From NCBI GenBank assembly GCA_020627925.1, contig JAHDFY010000007.1, positions 1 to 51,860 on the forward strand: a stretch of 51,860 bases of DNA, written 5' to 3'. Source of the stretch: a bacterium. Its GTDB lineage: Bacteria > Patescibacteriota > Gracilibacteria > Absconditabacterales > Absconditicoccaceae. The translations under genes and the position numbers were made by a program. Shown piece by piece: positions 200-13,161 of this stretch. The first letter of the stretch is position 1. The number at the start of each line of letters is the position of its first letter. The notes under the pieces were generated by a model. It was not told the DNA's origin. It ran no database searches and was given only the letters and a program-made list of their open reading frames with translations.

Positions 200-1606
<1,407 letters not shown>

Positions 1607-9215: not shown

Positions 9216-10724
9216 CTATGATTCTTTTACTTCATCTACAGCATCACGAATTACTTTCTTTATTCCTTCCTCTATTTCATCAGTAAGTTTTTTGATATCA
9301 ATAATCATATCACGTACTTCAACAAATGAGCTGTCTAGTTTTTCGTATAATGTTTGCTCGAATTTTTTTACTTGTTCTACTTCTAATTCATCCAAGTAAC
9401 CGTTAATTCCTGCATAAGTAAGAACTACTTGTTTGTCGAATGTAATCGGACTATTCACATCTTGTTTGAGTGCTTCTACCAATCTTTTTCCTCTATCCAA
9501 TACTTTTTTGGTAGCAGGGTCTAGATCAGAACCAAATTGTGAAAATGCTTCTAGTTCTCTATATTGAGCAAGTCCAAGTTTTAGTTTTCCTGCAACTTTT
9601 TTCATGATCTTTGTTTGAGCAGAACCACCTACACGTGATACAGAAGTACCAACATTAATCGCTGGTCTCACTCCAGCATTGAATAGGTCTGCTTCTAGGA
9701 AAATTTGACCATCAGTAATAGAAATTACATTAGTTGGAACGTATGCAGATACGTCTCCACCTTTTGTTTCGATGATTGGGAGTGCCGTAAGACTTCCACC
9801 TCCATTCTCTGGATTTACTCTTGCAGCTCTTTCTAGCAATCTTGAGTGTAGGTAGAATACGTCTCCTGGGTATGCTTCTCTACCTGGAGGTCTTCTCAAA
9901 AGAAGAGACATTTCTCTATACGCGTCAGCGTGTTTTGATAGATCATCATAAATGATAAGTGCATCTTTACCATTTTGCATGAAGTATTCTCCAATAGTAC
10001 ATCCGATATATGGAGCGAAGTATTGCATTACAGAAGGGGCGTTAGCTGGAGCATTTACTACAACAGTATAGTCCATTGCTCCTTTTTCTTTTAATGTTTG
10101 TACAATTCTTGCTACTTTTGATTCTTTTTGACCGATAGCAACATAGATACACACCATGTTTTCATTTTTTTGGTTCAAAATAGTATCAATAGCTACGGTT
10201 GTTTTTCCTGTTTGTCTATCTCCGATAATCAATTCTCTTTGACCTCTACCAATAGGGATCATGTTGTCAATTGATTTGATTCCAGTTTGAAGCGGTTGGT
10301 TTACTTCTTTTCTTGCCATAACTCCAGGAGCAACTCTTTCAACAGGATATCTTTCTGATCCTTTGATTTCTCCTTTGGCATCAATAGCTTCACCAAGTCC
10401 ATTTACTACTCTTCCTATGTAATCTTCTCCTACAGGAATTGAAAGTACTGTTCCTGATCATTGAACTATTTGACCAGTTGCTAGACCTTTTGCTTCACCA
10501 AGAATAAGAACTCCTATTTGATCCTTGAGTAGATCAAGAATAAGACCTTTGGTTCCGTTTTCGAATAATACAATTTCTGAGTACATTGCATTTTGCAATC
10601 CACTCACAATAGCAACTCCATCTTTGATCTCTAGGATTTCACCCTTGTTGCTGAGTGAATCACCAAGATCACTTTTGTGGATTTGCTCTTCGATTTTAGC
10701 TACGATATCATTTATGTGTGACAT
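9216..10724 (-). CDS. atpA: F-type ATP synthase subunit alpha
   Basis: 502 aa, normal length. N-terminal beta-barrel with [16 protein letters not shown], nucleotide-binding domain with Walker A GDRQTGKT around residue 170, and the catalytic arginine region [12 protein letters not shown]. One TGA codon at 10458-10460 lies between IVQ and SGTVLSIP and encodes Gly. Last gene of the atpB-E-F-H-A run. The gamma and epsilon genes that often follow are absent here: transcription meets a terminator six bases beyond the stop. Confidence 0.97.
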
Positions 10725-10760: not shown

Positions 10761-11198
10761 TTATCAGAGTAGTTTATTTAAATCTTGATCGAGAGATCTC
10801 GAATAGTATGTACCTTCTCCTTTGATTAACACACGAGGCTTGTCTATGTTGACCGGATGAGTCTCTGCATTATAGGTTGTTTTTATATGATCCGCAATGT
10901 CTTTATCTGATGGACTATATATGGTAAAGACAGGAGTGTGTTCAAAGTTTTCTTTTATCAAACGAATAATGTCTTGGACAGCATCTTTATTCATTTTTGA
11001 AAGAGAATGTAATAGACGAATAATACGCACAAGATCAGGATTATTTTTTTCAATAATAGATAGTATGCTATCTTTTTTTAAGTTTTTACCTTGTCTCAGC
11101 AGCAGTAATTTTATAGTTTCAAGATGTTGGATCACAAGATCGGTATCTTTTTTTCCTAGCTGTTCTGCTAACTGTTTGTTGGTCATATACATATGCAT
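10761..11198 (-). CDS. atpH: F-type ATP synthase subunit delta
   Basis: 145 aa, shorter and more divergent than typical delta (about 175-180). Identified by position between atpF and atpA and by a C-terminal segment PRVLIKGEGTYYSRSLDQDL that matches the end of delta subunits, which link F1 to the peripheral stalk. The codons after NKLL are TGA then TAA; under the glycine code the protein ends ...NKLLG at TAA, three bases later than a standard reading. Three in-frame ATGs near the start (11198, 11192, 11186) leave the N-terminus uncertain by four residues. Confidence 0.8.
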
Positions 11199-11216: not shown

Positions 11217-11714
11217 TTATGACTTTTTTGCTTCTTTTACAATAACATCAATGTATTCATTTTGTAATTCTTTTTTTCCATTGAATAATTTATTGATTGC
11301 TGAAGCAGAAACTGTTTTTACTGCATTTTCAAATTCTTTTTCCATTTCTTTTTCCATTTGAGCTGCTTTTGTTTCAGCTCCTTCTATAATGGTTTGCGCT
11401 TTTGTATGTCATTCGCTAATAATTTCTTCTTTTCTCTTTTCAGCGATACTACCAGCTTCTGCTATAAGAGAATCTTTTTTGTCTTTACCTTCTTTTATAA
11501 TTGTATCAGCTTTTTTATTTGCTTCGTCGATGATTTCTTCATATGCAGTGTCTGCGTTTTCAAGTTTTTTGATAAGATTTCTCTTTTCTTGCACCTCTTT
11601 GATTATTTTGTCTCCAAGAAAATATTTGAAAGCAAAAATAAGAAGAAGTACATTAACCGCTTGTGCAATAAGAACTCATCAATTCAAATCCAATGATGCT
11701 AGTAGTTCGTTCAT
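11217..11714 (-). CDS. atpF: F-type ATP synthase subunit b
   Basis: 165 aa. One N-terminal membrane helix (about residues 13-32, VLIAQAVNVLLLIFAFKYFL) followed by a long charged amphipathic helix rich in Lys, Glu and Ala (EVQEKRNLIKKLENADTAY and onward), the peripheral-stalk coiled coil. TGA codons encode glycine, including a pair in LNGGVL before the membrane helix. Placed between atpE and atpH as expected. Confidence 0.9.
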
Positions 11715-11776: not shown

Positions 11777-12217
11777 TTATCCTAGGATTTGGAATGCTAG
11801 TACCAATCCGTAGATAGCTGCAGATTCAACAAGAGCAATAAATAGTACCATATATGTCAAAATTGATCCTTTGATTTCTGGATTTCTGTGTACTGCTGCA
11901 AGAGCTTCTTTTGCAACAAAACCTTCACCAAGACCAGCTCCAAGACCAGCAAGACCGATAGCAAGACCAGCTCCAACTGCTTGCATTACTTCAATAGACT
12001 CAGCAGAAACAATATTGAATCCGATAACAAGAGCGTAGATAGCTGCAGATTCAACAAGAGCGATACCTAGAATTGTGTATACAAGAATAGTTCCACTAAG
12101 TTCTGGGTTTTTCCCCATAATTTCTAATGCTTTTTTTGCAGTAATTCCTTGTCAAATAGTTACTCCGATAGCTGCTAGACCAATAGCTAAACCAGCTCCA
12201 ATAAGATGTGTAGTCAT
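11777..12217 (-). CDS. atpE: F-type ATP synthase subunit c, duplicated hairpin
   Basis: 146 aa, about twice a normal c subunit, with two tandem helical hairpins (residues 1-70 and 80-146). Each repeat has an ion-site glutamate in helix 2: E56 and E131, both in VESAAIY. The Na+-site residues of the Ilyobacter ring (Q32, E65, S66, Y70) map to Q23, E56, S57, Y61 in the first hairpin, and to E98, E131, S132, Y136 in the second; the 33-residue spacing is exact in both. Thr67 of Ilyobacter is Ala in both. A TGA codon encodes the Gly before Q23. Both hairpins keep the carboxylate, unlike eukaryotic-type V ring duplications where one is lost. Confidence 0.93.
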
Positions 12218-12306: not shown

Positions 12307-13161
12307 TTATGCTTTTGCAACTTTAATAAATATTGCTCCTAATAATGTCACAACAAAAGCTTGCACAAGAGCAACAAGTAATGATTGAATCCAAAGAATA
12401 ATAGGAAACAAAAATGGGAAATCCAATCCACCGATACTTTGTGATAGTCAGATAGTTGCTGTAGTCAAAATTCCTAGGAGAATTGTTCCTGAGAACATGT
12501 TTCCAAATAATCTGAAAGAAACTGATATGATTTTTGCAAATATCCCAATAATATCTAAGACACCAATGAAGAGCGATATAATAATATCAAACAATTTTAC
12601 TACCACGAGCATTGGATAATAAACTATTGCTGATTTTTGTCCTCTGTCTACTGATAAGTATCATTTACCCATGATTGGAAAGTATTCAGAGAAAAATTTA
12701 ATTGGCCCTATATGAAACAATTGAATCACTAACGAGAGCAATACAATGATAAGTGAGAGAGCAGTCGTTGCATTTTTGTCTCATGAGAAAGCTCCAAACA
12801 TGTTTTCTCCTTGTGCAAGACCAATTGATTGAGCATAGCTATCACTTATTGATACAAATGATCAAACAATGTCTCCTACCAAACCAAGAAGGTTTGCTAT
12901 GAGAACAACAAAAAATATTGAAGTGAGAAATGAAAGTATCCATTTTTTTTCATGAGTTCCAAGGATTTCTTGAAGAAAGTCATGGATTTTTTCAACTGCT
13001 CACTTGAAAAGTAAAGTGAAACTTCATTGCGGCATTGTTCTAAAAGACAATGCGATAAGTACGATAAGTAGTAATTGAACAAGTCAACCAAGAATAGCTG
13101 GTTGATATCACAAACTCATAGTTGTGTTGATTGCTTCTGGCATAACGCTTATTGTGTCCAT
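12307..13161 (-). CDS. atpB: F-type ATP synthase subunit a
   Basis: 284 aa membrane protein forming the ion half-channels. About five to six membrane helices; the essential arginine lies in SVSFRLFGNMFSG (around residue 218), and the last helices read LVALVQAFVVTLLGAIFI. About nine TGA codons encode Gly. ATG 13159-13161 gives MDTISVMPEA; a second ATG seven codons on is possible. First gene of the minus-strand ATP synthase run; a TATACT box lies about 45 bp upstream. Confidence 0.95.

Follow-up and report, generated by a model that had tools for sequence, protein, structure and literature searches.

The size of the rotor ring fixes how many ions an ATP synthase pays per ATP, and it is normally accessible by measurement only. 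The atpE gene examined here raises the question of whether a genome can record that number. It lies on contig JAHDFY010000007.1 of a bacterium of the Absconditicoccaceae (Patescibacteriota, Gracilibacteria; assembly GCA_020627925.1), of which positions 1 to 51,860 were analyzed (hereafter, the window), and encodes a c subunit of two fused hairpins, termed A and B. Comparison with relatives establishes, at the sequence level, that the halves are fused, that hairpins are of two types, that both ion sites are retained and that the types alternate in longer genes. A ring of 12, Na+ coupling and the working direction are what we infer from it. We read the product, with moderate confidence, as the rotor subunit of an F-type ATP synthase, an A-B dimer that would form an alternating ring of 12 hairpins with both sites working and Na+ as the more likely coupling ion. 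The gene and its two halves are as follows.

11777..12217, minus strand: atpE, fused double-hairpin c subunit of 146 amino acids (aa), with TGA read as Gly at G22 (12152-12154); table 25 translation and Pfam.
12005..12217, minus strand: hairpin A, aa 1-71, with Q23 (12149-12151), E56 (12050-12052), S57, A58 and Y61; loop GKNPE.
11780..12001, minus strand: hairpin B, aa 73-146, with E98 (11924-11926), E131 (11825-11827), S132, A133 and Y136; loop HRNPE.

Under genetic code table 25, in which TGA encodes Gly, positions 11777-12217 form one open reading frame (ORF) with a lone in-frame TGA at G22; a table 11 reading was ruled out, as its frame breaks there. The codon falls in the GxG preceding Q23, and we assign it to Gly because the aligned column is Gly in relatives (20 of 21 A hairpins). 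Pfam ATP-synt_C matches the product twice, and the fold, polar RNP/KNP loops and outer-helix carboxylates E56 and E131 are those of an F-type c subunit, in agreement with an earlier sequence-only reading that had proposed a duplicated F-type c with the ion-site Glu in both halves. An internal start yielding hairpin B alone was also rejected, M79 not being kept in relatives. A whole-genome search of the assembly, which is 96% complete, found no second c gene.

For the ion sites, the protein was aligned with the c subunits of Ilyobacter, Fusobacterium and Acetobacterium woodii; residue columns follow Ilyobacter numbering. Hairpin A reads Q32/E65/S66/A67/Y70 and hairpin B E32/E65/S66/A67/Y70. The earlier reading had pointed to spacings of 33 residues between Q23 and E56 and between E98 and E131, to Ser and Tyr at Na+ positions and to a two-carboxylate site in the second half. 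All three hold in the alignment: the spacings equal that of Q32-E65 in Ilyobacter tartaricus, S57/S132 and Y61/Y136 are in register with S66 and Y70, and E98-E131 is the two-carboxylate site of hairpin B. Both hairpins, therefore, carry the Na+ core of Mulkidjanian 2008 (Gln/Glu32, Glu65, Ser/Thr66 and Tyr70). Position 63 is Leu in both halves, which is harmless because the ligand there is a backbone carbonyl.

Relatives were sought by systematic searches within this phylum, where the order is represented by 49 genomes. A c subunit was matched in 31 of these, and 21, including the present one, have an intact fused c; the remaining matched genomes contain either a fragment or a single-hairpin c of H+ type, in which position 32 is Ile/Leu and position 66 mostly Ala. 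Such conservation of the fusion across the order argues that it is not due to chance. Across the 42 hairpins of the fused set, E65, Y70 and S/T66 are each present in 42/42 and Q/E32 in 41/42, the pattern expected from selection on both sites. Our favored reading of these residues is that each hairpin has a functional ion site. Alternatively, ion transport might be confined to one hairpin, with a structural role left to its partner; V-type K subunits are of this kind, and the rotor would then move few ions per ATP. Duplicated c/K subunits commonly lose one site, and among double-hairpin matches in other members of the phylum (L066-L073), Gln takes the place of the first carboxylate; these proved to be V-type K genes and were excluded as relatives. 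A V/A-type K subunit with one site per double hairpin would have lost one of two carboxylates, whereas E56 and E131 are both kept here. With E65 retained in all 42 fused-gene hairpins of the order and in each complete unit of the 12-hairpin genes described below, and with S66 and Y70 likewise retained in both halves, we regard the one-site alternative as very improbable.

The earlier description of fused F-type c subunits with both sites as uncommon stands among known enzymes and fails within the order, where the fused c (21 genomes) is the usual form. No natural example was found in the open-access literature searched, which is weak evidence of novelty. In another Patescibacterium, two adjacent single-hairpin H+-type c genes (L018:1250-1716) may represent a possible first step toward fusion.

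The two hairpins are distinct in kind. In a hairpin tree, types A and B form separate clades (support 99/93 and 94/67), and two differences are fixed: column 60 is Gly in all 21 A and Phe in all 21 B hairpins, and the loop Arg, nearly universal among c subunits, is present in B (21/21) and absent from A (0/21), including those of the present protein. Four relatives (L050, L051, L053 and L054/L033:5953-6411) have the reverse order, with B as the first hairpin and A as the second. Grouping all first hairpins was rejected (approximately unbiased test, p-AU 0.0026), as was grouping all second hairpins (0.0057). A tree of operon proteins (a, b and alpha) rejected the A-B genomes as one clade (p 0.0099) but not the B-A genomes (p 0.09). 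Because the A-B genomes do not form one clade, the B-A order probably arose inside A-B, once or twice. Both orders would give an identical ...ABAB... ring, so the permutation would be permitted if hairpins alternate.

A class-wide search of 353 genomes extended this pattern in a sister family, whose ORFs were translated with TGA as Gly. There, tandem c matches proved to be single ORFs, which in six genomes encode 12 hairpins (896-901 aa):

L117, 1487-4192: 12-hairpin ORF.
L118, 1446-4139: 12-hairpin ORF.
L120, 1691-4384: 12-hairpin ORF.
L121, 1074-3767: 12-hairpin ORF.
L122, 1412-4114: 12-hairpin ORF.
L126, 1380-4070: 12-hairpin ORF.

Shorter genes have six hairpins (L123, L124 and L151+L152, with two genes each; L127 and L128), four (L119, with two genes; L129, L130 and L131, the last cut by a contig end) or, in many others, two; L153 has at least eight before its contig ends. 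Hairpin spacing is nearly always 73-79 residues, E65 is present in every complete unit, and columns 57 and 60 alternate between A and B along the chain with few deviations. In a joint tree of both families, odd hairpins all fall in A and even hairpins all in B, making one A-B duplication followed by amplification the simplest history of these sequences. Most polyhairpin genes lie in F-type operons, flanked by a and b; the 12-hairpin gene of L118 and the extra genes of L119, L123 and L124 lie on the far side of a.

These genes also bear on whether the fusion could be an artefact, produced by misreading of a stop codon, by joining of two distinct genes or by faulty assembly. The atpE frame does hold a single TGA, and the genome resembles a metagenome-assembled one. 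Against this stand the identical fusion in 21 genomes of diverged sequence and the Gly column at the TGA codon. Furthermore, A-B units inside one gene share as little as 59-65% DNA identity (L118), a divergence that misassembly cannot yield, so the polyhairpin genes are not assembly artefacts. We consider an artefact extremely improbable.

Several further features of the sister family were recorded. L123, L124 and L151/L152 each have two differing six-hairpin c genes per genome, 6 + 6 again giving 12, and in L123 and L124 these genes lie on either side of subunit a. Seven loci (L133, L134, L138, L140, L141, L142 and L147) contain tandem Fo sets, a-c (two hairpins)-b followed by a-c (one hairpin, H+-like)-b; alpha is next in several, which would possibly place two Fo motors on one F1. 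TGA encodes Gly up to 147 times in the 12-hairpin genes L121:1074-3767 and L122:1412-4114 and once in atpE of the window.

How large, then, would the ring of the present organism be? Each c protein would be an A-B dimer with two hairpins and four membrane crossings, and hairpins would alternate A-B-A-B around the ring, so that the Gln/Glu site (Q23-E56) alternates with the two-Glu site (E98-E131), in which one Glu would remain protonated. With no c gene other than one for an A-B dimer, the hairpin number should be even. Since relatives' genes reach exactly 12 hairpins in six genomes, with shorter ones of 6, 4 and 2, sequence comparison makes 12 the most likely size; the ring would consist of six copies of the c protein and pass 12 ions per turn, or four per ATP. 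Three observations weigh against this number. L125 encodes ten hairpins, although two of its units are 90% identical and the repeat has possibly collapsed. L118 has a separate two-hairpin gene in addition to its 12-hairpin gene. Finally, each Na+ F-ring listed in a 2013 paper (PMC3692424) is built of 11 hairpins, a size that an even number would make impossible here.

The neighboring genes are relevant to the identity of the enzyme and its coupling ion:

12307..13161, minus strand: atpB, subunit a, 284 aa, with the conserved Arg kept, Thr at E. coli position 219 and Ser at position 245; Pfam ATP-synt_A.
11217..11714, minus strand: atpF, subunit b; weak Pfam ATP-synt_B and a match to a relative's b.
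10761..11198, minus strand: atpH, probable subunit delta; no Pfam match, weak match to a relative's delta and the same operon place.
9216..10724, minus strand: atpA, subunit alpha.
200..1606, plus strand (opposite): atpD, encoding subunit beta, separated from the other genes by about 8 kb.
Separate contig, G000:C1:42651-43541: gamma gene.

Thus, atpB-E-F-H-A are in the usual order a-c-b-delta-alpha, and the F1 subunits alpha, beta, gamma and probable delta are encoded in the genome. Beta and gamma are scattered, whereas several relatives have a whole operon, a-c-b-delta-alpha-epsilon-gamma-beta. As the genome has one alpha/beta pair, this is the sole F-type enzyme of the cell in the assembly. 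An N-ATPase was ruled out by gene order, which in that group is beta-epsilon-X-X-a-c-b-alpha-gamma with delta absent or fused to b, in contrast to a-c-b-delta-alpha with beta apart.

The proposal that the sites fit a sodium ring is upheld by the carboxylates, Ser, Tyr and Gln/Glu in register and weakened by a residue that it had left unremarked. Both halves have Ala at position 67 (Ala58 and Ala133), where the Ilyobacter and Fusobacterium Na+ reference rings have Thr and the fused c subunits of the order have A/C/V/S, never Thr. The residue-based arguments against Na+ begin here, as a polar residue at 67 forms the sixth element of the Na+ motif and is present in all predicted Na+ enzymes (Mulkidjanian 2008, PMC2359735). 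In addition, a Burkholderia N-type ring predicted to use Na+ was proved H+-specific (PMC5376962), and the ProAD rule (PMC11738941) would probably assign H+ to the present c. Two-carboxylate sites are not Na+-specific either, being found in H+-coupled rings of that Burkholderia N-type (c17; PMC5376962) and of S. pneumoniae and M. tuberculosis (PMC3692424). Weighing Ala67 and these H+ rings, we favor Na+ coupling with moderate confidence.

Subunit a provides a comparison independent of the c sequence. At E. coli position 245, it has Glu in 35/35 rows with H+-like c and Gly/Ser/Ala/Asn in 23/23 rows with Na+-like c. The order-level p of 1e-16 for this association is discounted, as the tree contains two independent changes only. 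With the sister family added, 93 of 97 rows agree (245 other than Glu where the full motif is found in a majority of c hairpins; exceptions L040, L127, L133 and L145). The association is tempered by two points: among supported independent pairs, four of five change in the expected direction and none in the opposite one (p=0.125), reflecting few independent changes, and that majority criterion was chosen with the data already in view. We take the comparison as moderate, sequence-derived support for Na+. Position 219 alone was dismissed as an ion marker, acids being lost there in both fused and H+-type single members of the order. Position 245 discriminates better, but the H+-coupled Bacillus PS3 enzyme has Ser at 245 while keeping Glu at 219.

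An H+-coupled or mixed H+/Na+ version of the same alternating ring, in which Ser, Tyr and Gln/Glu form a proton-binding network, is thus a serious alternative that we judge less probable. In addition to Ala67 and the H+-specific two-carboxylate rings, it is favored by single H+-type c subunits within the same order and by the assignment of Vampirococcus (Absconditabacterium) as H+-type from its c subunit (PMC8080830). However, the H+-type c subunits of the order differ, with Ile/Leu at 32 and Ala/Gly at 66, and are paired with Glu at a-245, whereas fused c subunits are paired with Gly/Ser/Asn at a-245 and no acid at a-219. As a separate observation in the sister family (L117-L126, L132-L149), Val often replaces Ser at 66 of hairpin B, in which case a-245 tends to be Glu, perhaps indicating repeated Na+/H+ switches.

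Published accounts of related bacteria describe an F-type enzyme in cells that lack a respiratory chain, with no consensus on where the ion gradient comes from (PMC8080830, PMC6851277). Searches of the 49 genomes found no Rnf/Nqr or OAD-beta (decarboxylase) pumps. Membrane pyrophosphatase (PF03030) occurs in five genomes of the order (G292, G295, G334, G290 and G329), three with a single H+-type c, two without a c match and none with a fused c. The present genome has two Na+/H+-exchanger-family genes. With no such pump found and, as reported for related bacteria, no respiratory chain, the cell may often run the enzyme as an ATP-driven ion pump, possibly tied to antiporters.

The broader pattern, an alternating A-B rotor together with single-chain relatives of 12 hairpins, stands out more than the fusion first noted. 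Genes of this group appear to record ring size (12, 6, 4 and 2 hairpins), would be natural counterparts of laboratory fused rings and suggest a rotor in which two kinds of site alternate in a set order. A-B and B-A genes, giving the same ring, would constitute a natural test of hairpin order, and the model offers a concrete hypothesis for ion-gradient handling in cells without a respiratory chain. A broader proposal, that these genes define an F-type rotor lineage, appears to us evenly balanced. Its alternating 12-hairpin ring with two chemically different sites would be built from dimers here, from reversed dimers in some relatives and from a single 12-hairpin chain, a natural single-chain F-type rotor, in the sister family; it would probably use Na+ and would then be the first Na+ F-ring with a hairpin number other than 11.

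Among known systems, the closest structural match is A. woodii c1. An AlphaFold 2 model from two sequences (mean pLDDT 74.5) predicts a double hairpin with helices 3-36, 38-70, 77-111 and 113-145, for which the top Protein Data Bank fold match is c1 (TM 0.86), followed by V-type K subunits. A. woodii c1 (4bem_J) is also the best sequence match (E 1.7e-15) and likewise a two-hairpin c, from an F-type Na+ enzyme; its second hairpin, however, has Gln for Glu and its ring is shared with single-hairpin c2, whereas the present protein is the sole c and has both Glu. One c gene with two sites thus rules out an A. woodii-type hybrid F/V rotor. Hairpin A resembles the Ilyobacter tartaricus c11 ring (1yce) in Gln32/Glu65/Ser66/Tyr70 and the spacing of 33, and hairpin B resembles the two-carboxylate Na+ site of the Fusobacterium nucleatum c11 ring (3zk1) in Glu32/Glu65/Ser66/Tyr70. 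Both reference proteins are single hairpins with Thr67, and the Fusobacterium ring is 11-fold, unlike the fused, Ala67-containing and presumably even-numbered rotor proposed here. Methanogen A-type K subunits (two hairpins in M. thermautotrophicus, 13 in M. kandleri; PMC2359735) are likewise fused with every ion site kept, and the natural long-chain rotor of M. kandleri resembles the 12-hairpin relatives; these are archaeal A-type proteins, whereas the present gene belongs to an F-type operon and has alternating A/B hairpins. The engineered single-chain c10 of Bacillus PS3 (PMC8809890) provides an active ring of fused F-type hairpins with all sites kept, but is man-made from repeats of one hairpin.
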